The notes under the pieces were generated by a model. The model was not told where the DNA came from. It ran no database searches and saw only the letters and a program-made list of their open reading frames with translations. Below, piece after piece: positions 20,557 to 34,847 of a stretch of 44,416 nucleotides of DNA (within the stretch, counting starts at the first letter, position 1; each line of letters begins with the position of its first letter). Both the position numbers and the translations under genes were made by a program. The stretch comes from an uncultured Methylococcaceae bacterium (GTDB taxonomy: Bacteria; Pseudomonadota; Gammaproteobacteria; Methylococcales; Methylococcaceae). Where the stretch lies: NCBI GenBank assembly GCA_903859815.1, contig CAIOOA010000094.1, positions 1-44,416 of the forward strand, in the 5' to 3' direction.

Positions 20557-22101
20557 TTATTGTGGGTGCGGGGATATTAAACTCATTGCCAATGTCGGCG
20601 AGTGGCCGGCTTCAAGCCGTGCGACCCAAACTTGCAAGGGCTTTAGATTGAAAGATAAAACCGATTGGGGGAAAACCCCTAAACCTAGGCTCAACAACAC
20701 CAAAGTCGCGGCTATGCCTAATTCCCTAGGCTGTAAGTCGACAGCAGATTTGACATCGTTACGCAATAATGGCCCTAGAAACCCACAGCGGAAAGCATTC
20801 ATAAAATAGGCAGCGCCTATTATCATGGCGATCAACGCGGCTATCCCAACGCCGACATGTGATTGAAATGCACCGATGACAATCAAATTTTCGGAGACGA
20901 AGCCATTGCTGCCGGGAACGCCCATGGATGCCAAGCCAAGTATGAATAACAGGCTAGTCAATACTGGCATGGTTCGTGCCAAACCCCCCAAAGCGGTGAG
21001 ATCGGTCGAGCCTACACGCTGATGGAGAAATCCAGTCAACAGAAAAACTCCACCCGCCACGATGCCAAAGTTGAACAATTGAAACACTGCGCCTTGAATG
21101 CCTTGTAGGTTAATGGCCGTAATGCCAATCAACACCAAACCGACATGACTGACGCTTGAATAAGCGAGCATCCGCCGCAGGTTGGTTTGCCTAAGGGCGA
21201 TCAATGCCCCATACAATGCGCAAAATGCCCCTAATCCGGCCAAAATTTTGGAATATTGTTGAGTGGCCTGGGGTGCAAACGGCACTGCAAAGCGAATGAT
21301 GCCATAAAGACCAAGCTTCAAACCCATCAACAAGGTCGTGACCCCAACCGGGCCTTGCATGGCCACGGTTGGCAACCATCCATGAAAAGGAAACAAGGGG
21401 GCCTTGACGGCAAATCCAAGGAAAATCAACACAAAAATCGTCGACTGCATCGTTAACGGAATAGGGGTTTCCAGCAAGGTGAAATAATCAAAACTTAAGC
21501 CTGCGGGAACATCCGTTGAGGTTTCCCTGGCATTGTTCAATGCCATCAAAATAAAGCCCAATAATAGGGGAACCCCACCAGCCAGCATGAATAATGTGTA
21601 TTTGATGGCAGCATGGCGGCGTTGCGGACCCACCCCCCACAGGCTAATCAAAAAGTAAATCGGTGGCAGAGTCAATTCCCAAAACAGAAAAAACAAGCCC
21701 AAATCCAATGCGCAAAAGACACCCATGGTGACACCTTCCAACCAGAGCAAAAGTGCTAGATAAAGGCGTGGCAGGGAATGGATGGCATTCCAAGATGCCG
21801 CCATGACGCAGACACTCATCAGCGCGGTTAGCGGCAGAAAAATCACCGAGATGCCGTCTATACCCAACAGATATTGAATGTGCAGGGTGGGTATCCATTC
21901 CATACGCTCAATGAACTGCATATCGGCCGTCGAAGATTGAAAAGCGAACATCAACACACCCGTCGCCAACAGTTCGAGCAAAGCCACAGACAATGCAAAC
22001 CGACGGGCTGAGCGTTCGTTCCCAAAGACGAATAGTGACATGCCGGCCACTAGAGGCAACAAGACCAGTAGGCTAAGAATGGGGAAATGATTGATCGCCA
22101 T
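20557..22101 (-). CDS. NuoM-like proton channel subunit with intact key residues
   Basis: The 514-residue membrane protein belongs to the Mrp-antiporter/complex I ND4 family (PF00361). All residues expected for proton transfer are present: E142 in LFWELTLPP (TM5), K233 in AVKAPLFPFHGWLP (TM7), K262 in MGLKLGLYG (TM8) and E404 in GFVSENL (TM12). About 14 hydrophobic helices are visible. No other nuo genes (A-K, N) are nearby, so it is unlikely to be part of respiratory complex I. Its place 31 bp behind another antiporter-like gene in the dabA cluster suggests a cation-translocating module of a DIC-accumulating complex. Confidence 0.88.
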   Translation of the reverse strand: MAINHFPILSLLVLLPLVAGMSLFVFGNERSARRFALSVALLELLATGVLMFAFQSSTADMQFIERMEWIPTLHIQYLLGIDGISVIFLPLTALMSVCVMAASWNAIHSLPRLYLALLLWLEGVTMGVFCALDLGLFFLFWELTLPPIYFLISLWGVGPQRRHAAIKYTLFMLAGGVPLLLGFILMALNNARETSTDVPAGLSFDYFTLLETPIPLTMQSTIFVLIFLGFAVKAPLFPFHGWLPTVAMQGPVGVTTLLMGLKLGLYGIIRFAVPFAPQATQQYSKILAGLGAFCALYGALIALRQTNLRRMLAYSSVSHVGLVLIGITAINLQGIQGAVFQLFNFGIVAGGVFLLTGFLHQRVGSTDLTALGGLARTMPVLTSLLFILGLASMGVPGSNGFVSENLIVIGAFQSHVGVGIAALIAMIIGAAYFMNAFRCGFLGPLLRNDVKSAVDLQPRELGIAATLVLLSLGLGVFPQSVLSFNLKPLQVWVARLEAGHSPTLAMSLISPHPQ

Positions 22102-22132
22102 GAGTTAAATTAAGTTGCTTGAGATTTTGTTG

Positions 22133-23635
22133 TTATTTGGTTCGGGAGTCAATTTTGTTGGCAAGCTTGACCAGCGAACCGTCTACAATTTCCAACCATG
22201 GTTCCGTATAAAACCCCACGACTATCTGCACTGAACATAGCGCCCCCACCAACACAATTTCCGGCAGGCTGAGCCGGATTTTTTCGGGCCGTAAGGCCGC
22301 ATCGCGCCGACTGGCCAAAAACACACGCTGGAAGGCCCACAATAAAAATGCCGCGGAAGCAACGCTACCCGAGGCCATGGCGACGGCGACGCCCCAGTTA
22401 TGCGTTTCGATGGCTCCTTCTAGCATGAGATGGGCAGCGTCAAACCCCGGGGTTCCAGGCATTGCCATGGTACTCAGTGCAGCCAACAAAAAGGTCAAGC
22501 CTAACAGGGGCAAGGTGTCAAACATGCCACCTAGCCGTGGCAACAGTGTGGTGTGGGTGCTACGATACAGCACACCGGTGACAAACAACAAAGCACTTGC
22601 CGCCACTCCGAAATCAATCCCCAATAGCAAACTACCCTGAAGACCTTCCCGATTGAGACAAAACACACCGATTACCAGCATTCCAGTCTGACTGATGGCA
22701 GAAAAAGCCAGTAACCGGCGTAAATTGATCTGCATCAGCGCCAGCAAAGCCCCATAGAACAACCCGACGATTGACAATCCTACGATAAAAGATTTCCACT
22801 GGTGGGCTGCTTCGGGGAATAACGGCAGGACAAAGCGTAATAGGGCATAAATGCCGACTTTAAGGCCAACCAAAAACACGCAAACCGTGGTTAGCGGCCC
22901 ATGTTGAGCGACAACAGGCAACCAAGCATGGAATGGAAACAAAGCCATGCGCACTGAGAGCGCATAAAAAAAAAGGATGAAACTCAAGGACTGTTGGGAT
23001 CGGGAAAGTGGGGTATTCAACAAATCCGACAAGGCGAAAGACCATGACCCGGAGTTTTCCGCATGTTGCCATCCGACAATCAGCACAGCAGCCAGCATCA
23101 AAAACAATCCACCCGCCATGTTCACCAAATAACGCATCAAGGCCAGAGACTTCCCGTACCCGGAACCCCAGCGCTGAAGTATGAACGCCGCTGGAATCAG
23201 TTCCAATGCGGATGCCACCCAAAATTCAAGCAAATCAATGCTGAGGAATAGCCCCATTAACACGGCTTGAAAGGCAAATACGCTGGCTACATAAATGCCG
23301 GCTGGGCTTTCATCGACAATTTCCCCGTAGAGGATCACCAACAAGGTCAACAAGGCGGTCAAGGCAACAAATAGGATGCTGATCCCATCCACCCCGACAT
23401 GATAGGATAGGAAAGGGGTGACCGGGATTCGTTCGATGAACTGAAGCTCTGGCGAAGTGGTGTCAAAAATCACGAACAAGCCGACGGACAAGCCTAATTC
23501 GGTAGTGGCTGCGATGACACCCAGCAAAAAAGCCTGTTCTGCGGAGCGCACCGTCCAAGCCAAAGACATGGCGAGCAGGGGTAACACAATCAGTGCGCTC
23601 AAGATATGCTGAGACCAGATGTGTTCTGCCATCAT
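22133..23635 (-). CDS. Degenerate NuoM-like membrane subunit
   Basis: This 500-residue PF00361-family protein aligns over its length with the 514-residue neighbour, but three channel residues are changed. The TM5 Glu is A143 (LLEFWVASALELIP, with Glu at 137 and 145 instead). The TM7 Lys is R229 (SVRMALFPFHAWLP). The TM12 Glu is A401 (GFDAAHLML). Lys259 of TM8 is kept. The helices and the GVDGISI motif are intact, so the gene is not simply decaying. A structural or non-pumping subunit is a reasonable inference. It follows the ND5-like gene by 10 bp; ATG 23632 is an alternative start. Confidence 0.8.
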   Translation of the reverse strand: MMAEHIWSQHILSALIVLPLLAMSLAWTVRSAEQAFLLGVIAATTELGLSVGLFVIFDTTSPELQFIERIPVTPFLSYHVGVDGISILFVALTALLTLLVILYGEIVDESPAGIYVASVFAFQAVLMGLFLSIDLLEFWVASALELIPAAFILQRWGSGYGKSLALMRYLVNMAGGLFLMLAAVLIVGWQHAENSGSWSFALSDLLNTPLSRSQQSLSFILFFYALSVRMALFPFHAWLPVVAQHGPLTTVCVFLVGLKVGIYALLRFVLPLFPEAAHQWKSFIVGLSIVGLFYGALLALMQINLRRLLAFSAISQTGMLVIGVFCLNREGLQGSLLLGIDFGVAASALLFVTGVLYRSTHTTLLPRLGGMFDTLPLLGLTFLLAALSTMAMPGTPGFDAAHLMLEGAIETHNWGVAVAMASGSVASAAFLLWAFQRVFLASRRDAALRPEKIRLSLPEIVLVGALCSVQIVVGFYTEPWLEIVDGSLVKLANKIDSRTK

Positions 23636-23645
23636 CGCCTTGAAC

Positions 23646-25211
23646 TCAGAAAACAGCCAACAAAGTGGCGAGGATGAACACGATCAAATAACGTGGTTGA
23701 TTCAGCATCCTTTCAAATTCGTTCAAGCGGGTTCCCAATCTCCTACCCCACAATAGCATATTCGGACCCAAGCCTTGCAAAACCAATTTTTCCTCAAACC
23801 AATATGAAGCATTGGCACTAGTCCGCATGAGCAAACCGAATAAACCGCTCACTCGGAGCACTTCGGGATCGACAATTCCACTGCCCTCCCCGCCCTTGAA
23901 ACCGACAGTGGATTGGATTGAAAGGTTCGCCATCGGCGCCGGCAGGCCAAAGACAGGGTCGATGACCTGATGATCAAAGGCATTCAAATCGGCCCCCAAC
24001 TGCTGCACTGGCTTCACCACCAACTGGTCACCGATGTTTTCTAACCAAAGGCGTTGCAATGCAGCCAAGTATAGTAAGCGATGCTTGCCTAGCCATGGGG
24101 TGGCAGGCCGCTGCGAAATGCCGATGACGCCATGCATCAGTGAGGGCGAAGCGAGGAACTGGTAACCACGGAACAGGGCATGGGCGCAAAGATGAAACAG
24201 TGCCAAACGCCAAAACCCTAAACCTGCGGCAAGAAACATCAGGCCAAGTTGTCCTGTCGTCGAAAAAATCAGGGAGCTTTTTACGTCTGATTGCACCAAC
24301 CCACAAAAATAACCATAAAAGGCAGTCAATAAGCCTATGACCGCCATTAATCCCATCACGAACGGAGCCTGTTCAAACAAACCTTGCAGTCGCAGCACGA
24401 GATAAACCCCGGCATGAACCATGACCACACCATAGAAAATAGCACTGGAGGGAGTTGGCCCTTCCATTGCCCTTGCCAGCCAAGGCGCCAACGGGACAAG
24501 GGCTGATTTGGCAATGGCAGCCATCAGGAAACAGCATGCCAACACCCCCGCTTGCCATTCCTCCAAATGTGAATCCAATCCGGTAATGCTAGACCATGAA
24601 AGATCACCCACCCACAAGAACGAAAACACAATGCCTAGGATAAAACCAGCATCACCGATGCGATTGGTGATTAGGGCACGGGTTGCGTTGAGTGCCGCAG
24701 TCGAGCGATCAAACTGATAGGCGATCAACAGGAAAGAGCATACCCCCGCCAATTCCCATCCGACAAAACATAATGCGGCATTGCCAGCCGTGGCCAGCAC
24801 CAGCATGGCCGCCGAGAACAAGCAAAGCACTAAAAAAAATCGATGGAATCCGCCTTCCCTATGCATATAGTTGATGGAAAAGCGCATCACCAACGCCGCA
24901 AAAAGTGCGGTCAACCCGGCGAAGGCCAAGCTCAGACCATCGAGATTAAACGCCAAATCTATGTGATAGCTGCCGCTTTTTATCCACGTGCCGAAAACAA
25001 TCCGATCTGTTAGCGGGTCTTCGGAATTGAATCGGAAAATGGTGGCGATGATTATCAGCAGTAACGACAGAGAGACCGACCAAAATCCAAGTCGGCTGGT
25101 GAATCGCTCGCTCGCTTCGCCCTTGACCACCCCTGCCAACATGCCACAGCCAATCATTACGGCTGCCAGTAATGGGGGCATAGGTGAAAGGGCTAGAATC
25201 TCAGGCAGCAT
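23646..25211 (-). CDS. dabB: Short ND5/NuoL-like subunit, DabB candidate
   Basis: The 521-residue protein is ND5-like (proton-conducting PF00361). It has INYMHREGGFHRFF, E153 in GWELAGVCS, K235 in AKSALVPLAPWLARAMEGPT and the VMVHAGVYLVLRL helix. The second-half Lys of NuoL is R348 here (HALFRGYQFL). After about residue 365 it leaves the NuoL pattern: a 120-residue polar stretch precedes a single last helix (YLIVFILATLLAVF), and the long amphipathic C-terminal helix of NuoL is absent. DabB is the known partner of DabA, and the direct overlap with dabA supports this role. The start at 25211 has AAGGAGG 9 bases upstream; the alternative ATG at 25232 has no such signal. Confidence 0.85.
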   Translation of the reverse strand: MLPEILALSPMPPLLAAVMIGCGMLAGVVKGEASERFTSRLGFWSVSLSLLLIIIATIFRFNSEDPLTDRIVFGTWIKSGSYHIDLAFNLDGLSLAFAGLTALFAALVMRFSINYMHREGGFHRFFLVLCLFSAAMLVLATAGNAALCFVGWELAGVCSFLLIAYQFDRSTAALNATRALITNRIGDAGFILGIVFSFLWVGDLSWSSITGLDSHLEEWQAGVLACCFLMAAIAKSALVPLAPWLARAMEGPTPSSAIFYGVVMVHAGVYLVLRLQGLFEQAPFVMGLMAVIGLLTAFYGYFCGLVQSDVKSSLIFSTTGQLGLMFLAAGLGFWRLALFHLCAHALFRGYQFLASPSLMHGVIGISQRPATPWLGKHRLLYLAALQRLWLENIGDQLVVKPVQQLGADLNAFDHQVIDPVFGLPAPMANLSIQSTVGFKGGEGSGIVDPEVLRVSGLFGLLMRTSANASYWFEEKLVLQGLGPNMLLWGRRLGTRLNEFERMLNQPRYLIVFILATLLAVF

Positions 25212-28200
25212 TACGGCCGCCCTCCTTGGCATCGGGCAAACGAATTAAAGCCGGAGGCCGAGGTTCGATATGACCGTCATACCAATCTCGGGAGCGTTCC
25301 ACCAACGGCAATTCATTCGTTTCAAAAGCCCATTCAACGAACCCCCGCTCCGGTTCAAAGTAGGCTATGGCTCCGGTCTCTGGATGCAGGCTACTGAGCA
25401 GCAACCAACCATTGCCTATCAATTCGCGAAGGCTGGGTTGTCGATGGTAAATAGCGTTTAGTACATCCGCGTCAGCCTCGACCACGACCTGCAAGCGCAT
25501 GGCTTCATGTATTTCTATCATCTGTTTTGGCAGACCCGTGCGCAAATCACTGCTGGCTCCCTCCATCACTCCAAATAAACCGGCAACGTTGTGGGGTACT
25601 TTTGAGCCGCAGCCGTACTTGTCATTGTTTACCGTGGAAAAATAATATTCCAAATTAATGCCAGCACCCACCGGTCCAACCGCCAATAATATGCCTTCAA
25701 GAATTTGTCCATCTGGGTCTTGGGATGCATCATAAGAAATCAAAAATATTCGACGGTCAAAAAACACGCCACGGGTGACCGCCCGCCGACCAATTAGAGC
25801 CGCAGCGTTGGTGGCATGGCCCAATTCTGGCCGGGCCTGGCTAAAATCGACCGAGCGGCCCACCACATGATTCAATGCTTTGATTAGGCTGGGCTTGCGC
25901 GGTGCTAATGCGAAGCGACGGCAGCGTTCATGGGCGGAAAGCTGAAGCGCCCGCCCCAAGTCAGTACGCAAAGATGCCAAAGCATCCAAAAAATGCTGGG
26001 GAATGCCATCCAAATCGTACCAAGTGAAAGTCTCGTCACAGGTGTTGTGTTCGGTGCCAAGGAACCAGGTATCCTTGGGGATTTGTATGTTCCGCTCAAG
26101 CAAACCGTCGCGCACTTCGGCGTTATTCGCCATGGCTGCGAAAACACGGGCATTGGGACCACCATGGCGGCCCGAACAAGCCCCGCAATCATACGCGGCA
26201 AGATGAGGGTTGTTTTGACTCGTGGAACCATGCCCACTCAGCACCACCAGCGGGGCAAAATTGGAGGTCAAACCGACATTACGCAAGAATGCCGCAACCC
26301 GGTCCGCTTGCTCGGCAATTGTTAGACCTAAACGAGGTTTGTCAGGCGTTGCCGTCGTACCGTCTTCGACTGCTGTGAGTTGAAGTCGGGTCGGAACAAG
26401 CGGGACAAATATTTGTTTGGCATGGCTTTTAAGTGCTTCAAAATGACGCGGGAAAAACAGTTTGCCTGCTAAAACGGCCAATGCCCCTGGTGCCAGCAAA
26501 TAAATTAGCGCACTCGACACCGTCAGGTTTCGGCGTACTTCCTGATTCACTAAGCGAGTCAATTTGTCTTTCCAAGACCTGCCCCGGTCATGCCGAGTCC
26601 GCAAAGCGTCCTGTCCCGTCTGGGGTTGCTCCCGAACATCATGAGAAGGTGTCACCACCACCGGACACAAAGGTGTCGGCTGGCTGTCATCCAAGCCATA
26701 CCAATTTATCGGCACGCCAAAGAAACCAGCCGCCCCCAAAGTCTCAATGTCAGGATTGAGTTCCTCAAGATGGCGTCGAATGCTTTCCTCACGGTCATCC
26801 ATGCAAAAAATCACCTGCGCTTGAGGCCGGGTATGGCGTACCAACCAACGGCCCCTCCCGTGATTCTGGGAGAGGGCTGCAAACAACTCATGCCGGTAGT
26901 GATTCTCGTAGGCAATCAACCATAGTTGCCCTTTCTCGCTAGGTTTCAGATCATCCACCCAACCCAAAAGCCTCTCGGCCTCTGCCAGCGGCAAACCTCG
27001 CAAGGAATCTGCGTCTAGCCCTAAATGTTGACAGATGCGAAATAATCGCCAAACACTTCGATAAACCGTATGAATTTCAGACTGTTCTGCCGATTGGCTA
27101 TGCTTCCATGTCCAGATCATATCCGCCAATGCCTGCCACTTTTCACGGTGGGATCGCTCGGTCCAAGACAATCCGATCAATTTTTGGACAGCATTGGCTA
27201 GCCACTCGGGCAACTCGTTGGCGAACAACATTCGCCTTGCCAAAAACTCCGACGGATGACGTTGGAAATAATCATTGATCGCGTCCAGCCTACCTACATG
27301 GCCCCACGTTTCCCGGCAAATGCGTTCAATCCAGACACTATCCAAAAACAGCCGAATAGCAAGGTAATCCATCAGTGAAACAGGACCCTCTCGGTTGGCC
27401 GCATAACTGCGATGTTGGACTCGCCAATTGATAATGCCCGACCATCCCGGCAACTCCAAGGCTATTCTTTCAAGATAAGATTCCCAACACGATTCCGGAA
27501 TGTCCAAACCTCGCATTAACGCAATCACCGCGTCGACAGATTCTTCGGGCAACTCAGACAATTCAGCGCGCCAACCGGTCAGTTCTGTCAATGACAACGA
27601 GACATCGGCTGATGCTGCACGTTTCCAAGCGGCATAGAGTCCCAGGCTTCTATCCGGCGAATGCAAGGCAGCCAAACCTTCGTCCAAATGGGATGCACAG
27701 AATCGAATCAACACCGGACGCACTTGTTCTAGCAAATCCACCCCCGTCAATTGCAGCAACAGGGTGCGCAAACTAAGGTCCGTCCCAACAGATTCCAGCA
27801 TGGCCGCGAGAGTTGCCTTGGATTCGGCACACATCAACTGATGAACCCCTGGATTAATGGCGCATACTGTGCCATCGTGGGTTCTGGCATCGAATTCCGC
27901 CAACATCTCCGCTACCTTTTCTAGCGGGATTGTGGTCAACTCCTCAGGATGCAATTGGTAATTTTCCAAACCGAAGACATCCAAACAAGCATTCCAGAGT
28001 CCTCTCACGGCTTGCCATTCGGTAATGCCACCTCGCAACAATTCAGACTTTACCGGCGCAGGCACATCGGCTTGGAATCGATGCAACACGTCCATCTCTT
28101 CCATCTGCCAGTTAAACTGATTGGGTGTGATTGAATGGATGCCAAACAGCAATGCGATTCGGTAAACTTCCAGACAATCAATAGCCCTTTCACCAATGCT

Positions 28201-28536
28201 TATTGGTTGACAAGATAGATGCCCGTACATCCGATCAAAGGCTACTGCAAGGTCATTGTCATTGATGCGGCCTTGGGCATGAAACCGGCGAAACTCATCC
28301 TCTGACTGGTATCCATGGATTCCAGTCAACTTTTCCGCCGCATCCAACCCTTGCGCAAACGGCAAGTGCTGAAAGCCATGTAAAGTATTGTGGTGTACAA
28401 AATTTAAAATGGGGGCTTGACCGGGCAGGACATGATCCAAGTGATCTACAGCGGCCTGAAGCCTATGCCTGATAGCTTCCGTTCGGGAGTCTTCGGGAAT
28501 TTTCTGGGATGTCCCCGACCCAACATTAATATCCAT
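25201..28536 (-). CDS. dabA: DabA inorganic carbon transporter subunit (DUF2309)
   Basis: The 1111-residue protein belongs to DUF2309/UPF0753 (PF10070). In Halothiobacillus, DabA is the beta-carbonic-anhydrase-like subunit of the DAB bicarbonate-accumulating system. The zinc-site residues are present: C578 and D580 in VIFCMDDREES, H769 in LSGHGSTSQNNP and C784 in YDCGACSGRHGGPNARV. The H-to-C spacing of 15 equals that of the characterised enzyme. The N-terminal LNFVHHNTLHGFQHLPF is the usual opening. At 1111 residues it is of the long type. The gene overlaps the upstream NuoM-like gene by 11 bp and dabB by 11 bp. Coupling of CO2 hydration to cation flow through the membrane partners is the expected function. 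Confidence 0.95.
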   Translation of the reverse strand: MDINVGSGTSQKIPEDSRTEAIRHRLQAAVDHLDHVLPGQAPILNFVHHNTLHGFQHLPFAQGLDAAEKLTGIHGYQSEDEFRRFHAQGRINDNDLAVAFDRMYGHLSCQPISIGERAIDCLEVYRIALLFGIHSITPNQFNWQMEEMDVLHRFQADVPAPVKSELLRGGITEWQAVRGLWNACLDVFGLENYQLHPEELTTIPLEKVAEMLAEFDARTHDGTVCAINPGVHQLMCAESKATLAAMLESVGTDLSLRTLLLQLTGVDLLEQVRPVLIRFCASHLDEGLAALHSPDRSLGLYAAWKRAASADVSLSLTELTGWRAELSELPEESVDAVIALMRGLDIPESCWESYLERIALELPGWSGIINWRVQHRSYAANREGPVSLMDYLAIRLFLDSVWIERICRETWGHVGRLDAINDYFQRHPSEFLARRMLFANELPEWLANAVQKLIGLSWTERSHREKWQALADMIWTWKHSQSAEQSEIHTVYRSVWRLFRICQHLGLDADSLRGLPLAEAERLLGWVDDLKPSEKGQLWLIAYENHYRHELFAALSQNHGRGRWLVRHTRPQAQVIFCMDDREESIRRHLEELNPDIETLGAAGFFGVPINWYGLDDSQPTPLCPVVVTPSHDVREQPQTGQDALRTRHDRGRSWKDKLTRLVNQEVRRNLTVSSALIYLLAPGALAVLAGKLFFPRHFEALKSHAKQIFVPLVPTRLQLTAVEDGTTATPDKPRLGLTIAEQADRVAAFLRNVGLTSNFAPLVVLSGHGSTSQNNPHLAAYDCGACSGRHGGPNARVFAAMANNAEVRDGLLERNIQIPKDTWFLGTEHNTCDETFTWYDLDGIPQHFLDALASLRTDLGRALQLSAHERCRRFALAPRKPSLIKALNHVVGRSVDFSQARPELGHATNAAALIGRRAVTRGVFFDRRIFLISYDASQDPDGQILEGILLAVGPVGAGINLEYYFSTVNNDKYGCGSKVPHNVAGLFGVMEGASSDLRTGLPKQMIEIHEAMRLQVVVEADADVLNAIYHRQPSLRELIGNGWLLLSSLHPETGAIAYFEPERGFVEWAFETNELPLVERSRDWYDGHIEPRPPALIRLPDAKEGGRNAA
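25211..25227 (-). promoter_or_regulatory. Shine-Dalgarno of dabB inside the end of dabA
   Basis: AAGGAGG (25227-25221, minus strand) lies within the last codons of dabA and stands 9 bases before the ATG at 25211. The dabA stop TGA (25203-25201) falls just inside the next gene. This decides the dabB start and implies that the two proteins are made in coupled amounts. Confidence 0.75.
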
Positions 28537-30016
28537 GAATAACCTGATGGTTTTTTTGTGTCTGGCTCATTGCGCTTAGATTTACCACAGACGCATCAAT
28601 CATCTTTAACACCGGAAAAGGCATGATGCCTAAAGCGACAACACCCATGCTCAACAAACCTACGGCAGCCAATTCCAACCCACGCAAATCAGCCACGTCA
28701 CTCATGCGAGGACTGACTGGGCCAGTAAACAATCTGCCTATGGTCCGCAAAGCATAAGCCCCGCTGATGAGGATACCGATGCTGAGTCCAACCACCCACC
28801 AACCCCAACGCTCGAACCCACCCACCAGCGTATGCAATTCTGCGATGAACCCGACGGTTCCGGGCAAACCCATTGCCGCAAGCAACGCCAGGGTGGTGAA
28901 TACAGCGAACCTAGGAGTCACCATGACCAAGGAACTGTAATCACTGATTTCCCGCGTGTGGGTGCGTTCATACAGAAGACCAATCAACAGAAACAGGGCC
29001 GCCGCAACCAAGCCATGGGCGGACATTTGCAAAGTCGCCCCCAACAGCCCGGTTTGATTCATCGTCGATAGTCCGAGCATCACCACACCCATGTGACTGA
29101 CAGATGAATAAGCCACCATGGCCTTAAGATCACTCTGCCGCCAAGCCAACAACCCGCCATAGACGATACTGACCAAGGCCAAGCCGACCAACAAGGGTTG
29201 CAAGGCGACCATCGCCATAGGCAACATGCCAGAGGCGCGCAACATGCCATAAGCCCCCATTTTCAATAATGCGCCAGATAGCAATATGCTCACTGGACTA
29301 GGCGCTTCAACATGGGCCAACGGTAACCAACCATGCAGGGGGAAAATTGGAATCTTGACCCCAAAACCGATCAACAACCCGGTAAAAACCAAAATTTGGC
29401 TATCGCGTGGCAACGCATTCGCCGTCTTGTTCATGGCTTCCATGGTGGTGGAGTGATCAGCAGATGAGGTGTAAATGACCAATAGTGCAATCAGCATAAA
29501 CACTGACCCACCCATGGTGTAAAGCACAAAATTCAGGCTGGCGGTGTGCCTACGCTTCCCCCCCCACTGATCAATCAGGAAAAACAGTGGGATAAGCGTC
29601 ATTTCCCAAAAAACATAAAATAAAACCCAGTCTTGGGCCATGAAGACACCCAACATGCCGGATTCCAAGATCAAAAGGCTGACATGGTAGCCTTTGACCC
29701 GTTCCTTCAAACTAAAGGAGGCTAAAAAGGCCACTAAGGACAACAGTGTGGCTAACAAAACCATAGGCAAGGAAAAGCCATCCACACCCAGCGCGTAATA
29801 GCTTCCCAACTCCGAATTCCAGATGGTCGATTCGGAGAACTGCAAGGCAAAAGAGTGACTGTCGAAGCCTAGGGTCAGGGACCATGCGAGAACCAAGGAA
29901 CCCACAATCCCCGTTAAGGCTACACCCCTCACCCAATTCGGATGATTGTCCGGTATCAGCGAAGTGATTAGCGCAGCGACAGCAGGCGTCCAAAGTATCA
30001 AGCTCAGAGTATGCAT
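28526..30016 (-). CDS. NuoM-like proton channel subunit, first gene of the dab cluster
   Basis: The 496-residue protein is the most NuoM-like of the set. It has GVDGFSLPMVLL, E138 in VFWEMTLIPLF, K221 in GVKIPIFPLHGWLPLAHVEAPS, K252 in LLKMGAYGMLR and E393 in GFIAEL, so all proton-path residues are kept. It stands at the head of the five-gene cluster, 78 bp after an extended -10 promoter, and overlaps dabA by 11 bp. It could be mistaken for a respiratory complex I subunit, but no other nuo gene flanks it and dabA follows immediately. Confidence 0.9.
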   Translation of the reverse strand: MHTLSLILWTPAVAALITSLIPDNHPNWVRGVALTGIVGSLVLAWSLTLGFDSHSFALQFSESTIWNSELGSYYALGVDGFSLPMVLLATLLSLVAFLASFSLKERVKGYHVSLLILESGMLGVFMAQDWVLFYVFWEMTLIPLFFLIDQWGGKRRHTASLNFVLYTMGGSVFMLIALLVIYTSSADHSTTMEAMNKTANALPRDSQILVFTGLLIGFGVKIPIFPLHGWLPLAHVEAPSPVSILLSGALLKMGAYGMLRASGMLPMAMVALQPLLVGLALVSIVYGGLLAWRQSDLKAMVAYSSVSHMGVVMLGLSTMNQTGLLGATLQMSAHGLVAAALFLLIGLLYERTHTREISDYSSLVMVTPRFAVFTTLALLAAMGLPGTVGFIAELHTLVGGFERWGWWVVGLSIGILISGAYALRTIGRLFTGPVSPRMSDVADLRGLELAAVGLLSMGVVALGIMPFPVLKMIDASVVNLSAMSQTQKNHQVIHGY

Positions 30017-30093: not shown

Positions 30094-30102
30094 ATTATAA
30101 CA
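30094..30102 (-). promoter_or_regulatory. Extended -10 promoter of the dab cluster
   Basis: TGTTATAAT on the minus strand (30102-30094) is a perfect extended -10 box. No good -35 (TTTCCG region) is seen, as is common for extended -10 promoters. Transcription would start near 30087, leaving a leader of about 70 bases before the first NuoM-like gene. No CbbR or LysR-type palindrome was recognised in the leader. Confidence 0.6.
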
Positions 30103-30193: not shown

Positions 30194-30535
30194 TCAATCT
30201 TTTGATTTCAACAAATCGATATAACGGTCTCTCTGGCGGGAGTTTAGTGTCTGCACGTTAATGCTGACAGTGACGATGAGCGAACTAACCAAATTGATAT
30301 GGCATGGCATTCGCAAAGTTTCCCTAGGGTTTCCATACGTGATTAACTCGAAGGTCAACATGCCCGACGAGCCTACTTTAGGCTTTCTTGCCCCCGGATA
30401 GGCAAGATTGGGGATTTGCATCGAAACCTCATGCCCCGTTAATTCGCGAGTACGTCCCGACAACATACCGCAACCGGAGACTTCGAGCATACAAGGTAAC
30501 TCGATTTTTTTTGCTCTATTGGGATCTTTATCCAT
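30194..30535 (-). CDS. Small PilZ-like protein
   Basis: The 113-residue protein resembles divergent PilZ domains: basic RAKKIELPC near the start, RTRELTGHEVSMQIPN where PilZ proteins carry the RxxxR and (D/N)xSxxG motifs, and a beta-rich GMLTFEL with VSSLIVTVSINVQ. The Arg motif is partly kept, but the second motif is degenerate (no G after S), so c-di-GMP binding is uncertain. It ends in a charged helix (RQRDRYIDLLKSKD). It is preceded by the P-loop kinase gene by 98 bp on the same strand. Confidence in the fold is moderate and in ligand binding low. Confidence 0.5.
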   Translation of the reverse strand: MDKDPNRAKKIELPCMLEVSGCGMLSGRTRELTGHEVSMQIPNLAYPGARKPKVGSSGMLTFELITYGNPRETLRMPCHINLVSSLIVTVSINVQTLNSRQRDRYIDLLKSKD

Positions 30536-33552: not shown

Positions 33553-34527
33553 TCACCTGACCGGCAAGGTTATGGGTTTGAATAGCTCTTCGACTTCATG
33601 TCTTTCCCTCAGCGCAAGAGCCTGAGAGATGAGGTCTTGGGTCAAATGCGGGGCGAATATGCGGATGAAATCATAAATGAAGCTACGTATGAACATGTCA
33701 CGCCGCAAACATATTTTGGTGACGCTGCGACCGAACAAGTGTTCAGCATCAATGGGCACCAAATCATCATCCACAATCGGATCGTAAGCCATTCTCGCCA
33801 CAATTCCCACACCTAGACCCAAGCGCACGTAGGTTTTGATGACATCGGCATCTACCGCCGTCAATACCACTTGGGGGTGAATGCCCAGTTTTTCAAAGGC
33901 CCTATCCAACTGCGAACGCCCTGTAAACCCAAAAACATAGGTGACAATCGGGTATTGTGCAACATCCGGCAGGCTAATACTGGCCAATTCAATCAGTGGA
34001 TGCCCTTTAGGGACTAGAATACAGCGATTCCATTCGTAGCAAGGCAGCAACACCAAATTTTCAAAATGGTCAACGGTTTCTGTCGCGATAGCCATATCCA
34101 CCAAGCCATGCGATGCCAGTTCTGCAATTTGGGTGGGGGTGCCTTGGTGAAGGTTTAATTTCACCCTAGGATAATGACCCATGAATTCACGCACCACCGA
34201 CGGCAAGGCATAGCGCGCCTGAGTATGGGTGGTTGCAATGGCTATCGTGCCCGCTTTATTGTCCTTGTGGTCTTGGGCAATGTTCCTGATATCCTGCGTT
34301 TTGCCTAAAATTTCACCGGCAATCGCAACAATCTGCTTTCCAGCTTCAGTAATTTCTGTCAGATGTTTGCCATTACGGGCAAAAATCAGCACACCCAACT
34401 CGGCTTCCAGCATCCTCACTTGTTTGCTGATGCCGGGTTGGGATGTATACAAGCTATCCGCTGTAGCGGAAACATTGAGTTCATGCTGGGCGATTTCCCA
34501 AATATAGCGTAATTGCTGTAACTTCAT
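33553..34527 (-). CDS. cysB: LysR-type regulator CysB
   Basis: The 324-residue LysR regulator controls cysteine biosynthesis and sulfate assimilation, with N-acetylserine as the inducer. The opening [20 protein letters not shown] and the HTH with [19 protein letters not shown] are typical of CysB. The effector domain contains [14 protein letters not shown], the CysB sulfate/NAS pocket segment, and [19 protein letters not shown]. CysB rather than Cbl or CbbR is preferred on overall sequence, since CbbR lacks TTHTQARY. It overlaps the ferredoxin gene as ATGA, indicating coupled expression. Confidence 0.93.
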
Positions 34528-34847
34528 CGTTTCAGATGCTGCAATTTATCCGGCTTGCCTTTCCATTCATCCGCATCTTTTTCAGGCTTTTTAACTTCAG
34601 TGATTACCGGCCATAATTTGGAGAGTTCTTTGTTAAGTTCGATAAAGCTTTGTTGCGCATCGGGCACTTCGTCTTCGGAAAAAATCGCATCGGCTGGGCA
34701 TTCCGGTTCGCAAAGTGAACAATCAATGCATTCGTCGGGATCAATCACAAGGAAATTTGGACCCTCATGAAAACAATCGACGGGGCATACGTCAACGCAA
34801 TCAGTGAATTTGCACTTAATGCAATTTTCGGTCACTACGAAAGTCAT
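34524..34847 (-). CDS. fdxA: 7Fe ferredoxin (FdxA-type)
   Basis: The 107-residue protein is a seven-iron ferredoxin. The cysteines C9, C12, C17, C21 and C25 in [20 protein letters not shown] and [12 protein letters not shown] bind one 3Fe-4S and one 4Fe-4S cluster, as in Azotobacter FdI. The C-terminal extension [20 protein letters not shown] is typical of the family. Start ATG has AGGA about 10 bases upstream. Its gene precedes and overlaps cysB, an arrangement that could link electron transfer with sulfur regulation; the linkage is seen, its meaning is inferred. Confidence 0.95.

Follow-up and report, generated by a model that had tools for sequence, protein, structure and literature searches.

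A contig of 44,416 nucleotides from an uncultured Methylococcaceae bacterium (CAIOOA010000094.1 of assembly GCA_903859815.1), henceforth referred to in its full length as the window, carries an operon whose products probably assemble into a membrane machine for making bicarbonate, with a carbonic anhydrase (CA)-like enzyme seated on a row of four complex I-like subunits and not on the usual one. Judged by its residues, the operon is a real and widespread five-gene variant of the PF10070 systems that is distinct from the DAB2 and DAB1 types. In the DAB2 system a beta-CA-like DabA2 stands on a single NuoL-like DabB2, and its activity was proposed to depend on the protonmotive force (PMC13144422).

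The five open reading frames (ORFs) were all found on the minus strand in the order originally predicted, M1-dabA-dabB-M2-M3 in the direction of transcription, and span positions 20557-30016. The evidence for each assignment is given in parentheses.

28526..30016, minus strand: M1, NuoM-like subunit, 496 aa (ORF, PF00361, NCBIfam NuoM, residues, tree)
25201..28536, minus strand: DabA, beta-CA-like zinc subunit, 1111 aa (ORF, PF10070, zinc-site alignment, model)
23646..25232, minus strand: B (dabB), ND5/NuoL-like DabB, 528 aa (ORF, PF00361 and PF00662, model)
22133..23635, minus strand: M2, NuoM-like, probable non-conducting spacer, 500 aa (ORF, PF00361, residue loss)
20557..22101, minus strand: M3, NuoM-like subunit, 514 aa (ORF, PF00361, residues, tree)

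M1 and dabA overlap by 11 bp, and gaps of 10 bp and 31 bp separate dabB from M2 and M2 from M3; these three values agree with the original prediction, while the overlap between dabA and dabB was corrected to 32 bp, with the ATG start taken for dabB. The spacing suggests a single transcript for the five genes.

Distribution and conservation of the five-gene cluster

A search of genomes for PF10070 loci showed that the five genes recur, in unchanged order, in 134 non-identical clusters. A chance array of ORFs is excluded by this conservation of gene content and order. The clusters are held by Methylococcales, Nitrosomonadales, Thiotrichales, Acidiferrobacterales and Magnetococcales, and named holders are Methylobacter, Methylomonas, Methylococcus, Crenothrix, Nitrosomonas, Nitrosospira, Nitrosovibrio, Candidatus Nitrotoga, Sulfurimicrobium and Cocleimonas, together with members of the Acidiferrobacterales and Magnetococcales. 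The arrangement is common to many methane-, ammonia- and sulfur-oxidising bacteria.

PF10070 was present in 124 of 201 genomes in a sample of the window's kin. Of 80 long DabA loci in that sample, 79 scored as five-gene-type DabA (78 without locus L075, described below) and 66 were complete and in order. Wider class and phylum samples contributed 60 loci, 30 with a five-gene-type DabA and 23 complete. Among named loci, which are the best 80 of 570 confirmed stretches so that the range may be wider, 53 were complete, and 19 of the 27 others have less than 4.7 kb of contig downstream of dabA. Some genomes occur both in the unnamed samples and among the named loci, and clusters with identical DabA ends were removed to arrive at 134; since the clusters are related by descent, the counts are not independent events.

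Two variant arrangements were also observed. In Thiothrix sp. (L252:7484-21156) the cluster contains the dabA-dabB pair twice and reads M1-dabA-B-dabA-B-M2-M3, with a lower-scoring second DabA and an M3 cut by the locus end. Locus L075 (8302-16778), from a different family of the order, holds another multi-antiporter arrangement in which a long DabA with Leu at the position of DabA2 Leu658 is followed by a 683 aa ND5-like gene and two NuoM-like genes; it was not counted as five-gene.

Zinc site and active-site residues of DabA

The window DabA matches the entire PF10070 profile with 837 bits (Pfam). The original prediction of a 1111 aa DabA with a zinc site was borne out by alignment of C578, D580, R582, H769 and C784 to DabA2 residues C351, D353, R355, H524 and C539, whose functions are described in PMC13144422. 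Across the five-gene DabAs, the two Cys and the His are present in 134 of 134 sequences each, and the Asp and Arg in 133 of 134. Long ORFs were cut to their last 1110-1150 aa for this alignment.

An AlphaFold model of DabA, built from 55 sequences, has a predicted local distance difference test score (pLDDT) of 80.6 and a predicted template modelling score (pTM) of 0.78. The first 18 of the 50 structural matches listed for it are beta-CAs, headed by CsoSCA with a Z score of 9.1 and a root-mean-square deviation (rmsd) of 4.6 over 310 aligned residues. Foldseek alone gave a weak CsoSCA match (E 4.6e-3). No DAB2 entry stood among the 50 matches listed from the fold library, which ends 2026-04-08.

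Two residue positions set the five-gene DabAs apart. The position of Leu658 in DabA2 is occupied by His in 134 of 134 five-gene DabAs (His907 in the window, within a loop of low model confidence, 900-907 being below 50), in contrast to Leu in 29/29 three-gene and 20/23 two-gene DabAs. Leu658 was found strictly conserved among 150 homologues, and Gln or His at the corresponding position of beta-CAs is thought to stabilise the transition state (PMC13144422). Two- and three-gene loci were labelled by their distance to DabA; four of the labels look wrong (L014, L022 and L096, three-gene; L123, two-gene), and the DabBs of both kinds were therefore pooled in the counts given below.

The second position is that of Glu444 in the DabA2 finger. 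Helices are predicted at 643-669 and 671-694, where DabA2 has its finger, in a block with pLDDT 63-93, and form a candidate transmembrane hairpin. Glu is found in 29/29 three-gene and 20/23 two-gene DabAs, the remaining three having Gln, while the five-gene DabAs have Asp (45), Asn (24), Ala (15), Tyr (11), Leu (11) or others (28), mostly non-polar besides Asp and Asn, in an alignment of the hairpin that may be off by a few positions and is the weakest of the residue comparisons. The window DabA has Tyr at this position and no acidic residue in 667-698.

The three two-gene DabAs that deviate from Glu444 are the same three that have His in place of Leu658. They form a two-gene lineage beside the five-gene clade (L077:1754-6261, L078:1379-5904 and L226:2145-6625), with a DabA of about 867-874 aa and a DabB of 626-675 aa, and combine the His at position 658 and a Glu in transmembrane helix 5 (TM5) of DabB with Gln at the finger. 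They share the first two features with the five-gene systems, were set apart in the residue counts, and are possibly an intermediate type.

The ND5-like subunit B

B matches PF00361 and additionally PF00662 (Pfam). A short ND5-like DabB had been predicted, and the two best NuoL models (NCBIfam) indeed cover B only to residue 369; the NdhF3 model reached 127 bits against a cut-off of 588.7. B retains the TM5 Glu, the TM6 Arg/Asp and the TM7 Lys. The TM5 Glu, at the position of NuoL Glu144, and the TM7 Lys are each present in 128 of 128 B sequences. Among other DabBs the TM5 Glu was found in 3 of 52 rows, a set that pools the two- and three-gene loci and holds one gene twice (L006 and L013); all three rows are from the one related lineage with short DabAs. 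None of six named two-gene DabBs ranging from Mesorhizobium to Haloarcula has it. The equivalent residue in DabB2 is Ile151, where introduction of Glu halved the growth yield (PMC13144422).

The AlphaFold model of B (pLDDT 83.3, pTM 0.77) superposes on NuoL at low rmsd across its first ~370-420 residues. This is comparable to DabB2, of which TM1-11 align with NuoL (PMC13144422). Confidence is low at 434-462, as would be expected if DabA orders that end.

The NuoM-like subunits

M1, M2 and M3 each match PF00361 (Pfam) and exceed the NuoM cut-off of 263.8 bits (NCBIfam TIGR01972) with 484, 328 and 450 bits, respectively. The complete Glu-Lys-Lys-Glu path (TM5, TM7, TM8 and TM12) is present in 132 of 132 M1 and 125 of 125 M3 sequences. 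A degenerate NuoM-like subunit had been predicted and corresponds to M2, which has the lowest of the three scores and has lost three of the four path residues: both Glu are absent and the TM7 Lys is replaced by Arg in 127 of 127 sequences, while the TM8 Lys, and a His adjoining the TM12 site, are found in all 127. Because the loss is so uniform, M2 probably has a settled function without conduction and is not simply decaying. The four antiporter-like subunits thus do not look equal, and at most three paths (B, M1 and M3) look competent. For all of these counts, subunits outside 440-620 aa were dropped, leaving 132 M1, 128 B, 127 M2 and 125 M3 from the 134 clusters.

A plasmid search with M2 returned 126 records, all below 60% identity, with the ten that were listed at 32-34%. 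A two-gene DAB was seen on a Mesorhizobium plasmid (L263:1774-6865), with cysD directly after it and overlapping by 4 bp.

Association of the five subunits

The claim that the additional NuoM-like subunits belong to the DabA system is supported by the order kept in 134 clusters, by natural fusions and by genomes in which the operon is split. Four loci (L136, L187, L193 and L195) encode B and M2 in a single frame of 1039-1045 aa, of which B takes up about 6-524 and M2 about 541-1033; two PF00361 stretches were found in each of the two fusions scanned (L136 and L187), and the three named fusion loci are from Contendobacter or Competibacteraceae. Eight genomes whose operon is split or odd, with M1-dabA or dabA on its own, were searched for M2. 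Seven have it elsewhere, at 40-44% identity (E 1e-106 or better), and in six of these seven a second NuoM-like gene lies close to it. One of the seven (G188) has an intact cluster too, and the eighth genome (G045) carries the different set of L075. G528 (L150) and G709 (L168), the latter with little contig, were outside this search. The TM5 Glu is a further point in support: among the DabBs compared, it is kept only in B and in one related lineage.

In a tree of antiporter-like subunits, M1, B, M2 and M3 each formed one clade, with M2 and M3 as sisters (99); M1-M3 fell with NuoM (100), apart from MrpD- and Hyf-like rows, and B fell with the other DabBs (90). The tree of DabA that had been suggested with the original prediction placed the five-gene DabAs in one clade, joined by the three short DabAs with His (100). 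The two trees come from quick searches; their support is from the Shimodaira-Hasegawa-like approximate likelihood ratio test only, and both carry long-branch warnings. A joint alignment of fused B-M2 frames with separate B and M2 chains was not used: its B half has columns conserved in every row, so that the M2 rows fell on B.

Upstream region and genome context

The candidate promoter upstream of M1 is listed here for completeness.

30094..30102, minus strand: extended -10 element TGTTATAAT, candidate promoter only

An extended -10 element in front of the operon had been predicted and is present, occurring once in the window. Chance alone would give 0.65 occurrences, and no promoter-like pair was listed in the region upstream of M1; the element is no commoner than chance and was set aside as evidence. 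Between M1 and the next upstream gene, a 113 aa ORF (30194-30535) had no Pfam or NCBIfam match. Further upstream are a CysB-type LysR regulator (33553-34527; NCBIfam) and, overlapping it by 4 bp, a short ferredoxin-like ORF (34524-34847) called from its Cys motif alone.

The window belongs to a draft genome of 5.8 Mb that is 99% complete and contains a second, DAB2-like DabAB pair on contig C100 (L013). It had been asked whether the PF00361 genes might serve respiratory complex I. This is unlikely, as neither nuoLMN nor a canonical NuoD was found in the draft genome, NuoH not being part of that search; complex I subunits encoded outside their own operon were set aside on the same ground. PF00346 was found only on contig C8, beside hydrogenase-4-like genes. 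The remaining PF00361 genes of the genome are Hyf-, Mrp- or DabB-like, and the operon is without a complex I core gene. The hydrogenase-4-like set and two MrpD-like genes are located on G000:C8 (L003, L004, L181) and G000:C59 (L005, L009).

The AMO family had no match in this genome and a match in one of four same-genus genomes searched. In the kin sample, 61 of 79 genomes with a five-gene-type DabA had no RuBisCO match, so the system is not simply a Calvin-cycle feeder; the 18 genomes with a match may include RuBisCO-like proteins.

Proposed mechanism

From the gene content and order, the conservation, the residue patterns, the natural fusion and the fold class of the DabA and B models, all of which were observed directly, we infer an assembly, a direction, a link of proton flow to catalysis and a stoichiometry. 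We give an even chance to a reading in which the five products make up a single complex in the membrane: a vectorial, proton-driven CO2 hydratase that belongs to the PF10070 superfamily and has a complex I-like arm and up to three proton paths. DabA would hydrate CO2 at its beta-CA-like zinc site, its helical hairpin (about 643-694) would plug into B, and B would be joined to its NuoM-like neighbours via the retained TM5 Glu. In complex I the TM5 Glu lies where one antiporter-like subunit touches the next. That B, which has NuoM-like partners, retains it fits a side-by-side arm, and a complex I-like membrane arm is likely on the sequences.

M1 and M3 would each carry a full proton path, and M2 would be a conserved non-conducting spacer beside B, a place suggested by the B-M2 fusion if the fusion reflects packing. 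One-way formation of bicarbonate would be driven by protons flowing inward along as many as three paths (B with DabA, M1 and M3). If B, M1 and M3 are all competent, each turnover could take up to three protons. A bicarbonate may thus cost more than a single proton, and the complex would act as a low gear in cells whose protonmotive force is weak. One proton is estimated to support a gradient of about 350-fold at 150 mV and about 10-fold at 60 mV, and three protons about 1000-fold at 60 mV; extra paths would therefore pay mainly at low protonmotive force. The original prediction of more cations per bicarbonate, or of a different coupling ratio, may hold for M1 and M3, whose paths are complete; four ion movers are not supported, given the state of M2. 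The reverse process, proton export driven by CO2 hydration as proposed in general terms in the COGNAT study (PMC5700660), was rejected because an estimated 1 kJ/mol or thereabouts near physiological concentrations is too little for one proton.

A bolder version is possible though doubtful: the operon would represent a separate class of vectorial CA, a redox-free complex I-like machine in which lateral charge transfer through the TM5 Glu couples up to three paths to a DabA bearing the CA-type His, with M2 as an insulator. As NuoL has the TM5 Glu too, single-subunit DABs may in this version have lost it along with the neighbours.

Alternative explanations

Several observations weigh against the proton-driven complex with a conducting arm. 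Glu444, the replacement of which abolished DAB2 activity (PMC13144422), is Glu in 0 of 134 five-gene DabAs, although 45 of them have Asp. DAB2 tolerates replacement of Leu658 in vivo with no loss (PMC13144422), so the His may not change function. M2, if located between B and M1/M3, would break the lateral charge chain and could perhaps uncouple M1 and M3. Mutual information between subunits gave no covariation signal above within-subunit pairs (effective number of sequences about 77 at 80% identity); of the pairs between subunits, B-M2 scored highest by top-20 mean, but this was not taken as evidence. In the window's genome, the RuBisCO large subunit has no match, and four beta-CA matches were found that could dissipate accumulated bicarbonate.

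The path-less M2, adjoining B if the fusion reflects packing, also speaks for a five-subunit hydratase in which only B and the DabA finger conduct, at one proton per bicarbonate, while M1-M3 serve as an arm for structure or regulation, gating the enzyme or sensing the membrane potential; DAB2 itself works with a single DabB (PMC13144422). We consider this rather unlikely, since all four path residues are invariant in M1 and M3, suggesting conduction, and since B, unlike the single-subunit DabBs examined, has the TM5 Glu.

Less still is to be said for M1-M3 being a separate Mrp-like cation/proton antiporter, or part of another respiratory complex, merely co-transcribed with a normal DabAB. All M subunits are PF00361 proteins, their contact with DabA and B is inferred, and the genome also carries hydrogenase-4-like and MrpD-like genes. 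Against this, no complex I genes were found, M1-M3 fall with NuoM and not with the MrpD or Hyf rows (on which tree an Mrp identity was set aside), B and M2 are fused in some loci, the path-less M2 is strictly conserved, and M2 persists in the split genomes, in six with a second NuoM-like gene beside it; this explanation is accordingly very unlikely. It is equally improbable that the function is that of an ordinary DAB and the NuoM paralogues are redundant and without mechanistic weight. DabA and B by themselves do resemble a full DAB pair, but relative to two- and three-gene DABs three positions have changed together (the active-site His, the TM5 Glu and the finger residue), and several orders keep the full trio of NuoM-like genes.

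The proposed proton-driven complex bears on two questions: how CO2 hydration in DABs is made one-way by ion flow, and whether more antiporter-like subunits mean more coupling ions. In the five-gene form, nature offers an experiment in which one type of enzyme stands on either one or four membrane subunits, with residues changing together, and the H+/HCO3- ratios of two- and five-gene systems bear on the idea of one proton per antiporter-like subunit, which is debated for complex I too. It also raises the question of why many methanotroph-order genomes with no RuBisCO match (the 61 of 79 above) keep such a device.

Comparison with known systems

A printed precedent is 'clade C' of COG3002 in the COGNAT study of 2017, in which ybcC/DUF2309 lies upstream of a nuoL homologue, frequently with NuoM genes, and the number of membrane subunits was proposed to relate to ion number (PMC5700660). 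Its function was then unknown, and exergonic ion export was proposed. As the arrangement and the ion-count idea were in print, in outline, before the function was known, the central inference of the original prediction is not new. The residue pattern, the fusion and the exact five-gene set were not met in the portions of the COGNAT text covered. COGcollator 2.0 places COG3002 beside MpsA only (PMC13399641, in the part covered), and the covered parts of PMC12628692, PMC7784846 and PMC11338360 do not describe a five-gene DAB set. Besides COGNAT, our literature search, which extended to neither Desmarais 2019 nor Schmid 2021, met no paper on NuoM genes beside DabA and no account of the active-site His, the residue pattern, an M2 without its path or the fusion of M2 to B.

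DAB2 of Halothiobacillus neapolitanus (PDB 9rd0) has the same C/D/R/H/C zinc subunit (PF10070) and a PF00361 ND5-like partner; the window DabA scores 276 bits against 9rd0_A and B 114 bits against 9rd0_B. The window system differs in its longer DabA, the His for Leu658, the lack of Glu444, the TM5 Glu and the three added NuoM-like subunits. Its dabA precedes dabB, whereas the DAB2-like pair of the same genome (L013) has dabB first. DAB1 (hneap_0907-0909) has PF10070 and PF00361 in common with the window system, and its third gene is a small membrane protein (PMC13144422). DAB1-like loci, called from the order B-gap-DabA, have a DabA of about 1040 aa, similar in length to that of the window. 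The three-gene DabAs nevertheless form a separate clade, with Leu658 and Glu444 in 29/29 each and a DabB without the TM5 Glu. DACs of one, two or three subunits are reportedly described by Schmid 2021.

In cyanobacterial NDH-1MS, NdhD3, NdhF3 and CupA are fed by ferredoxin electron flow through the NDH-1 core. NuoM- and NuoL-type subunits are joined there to a CO2-hydrating soluble subunit, as they would be in the window operon. NDH-1MS is also mentioned in PMC13144422. The window operon, in contrast to NDH-1MS, holds no core subunit.

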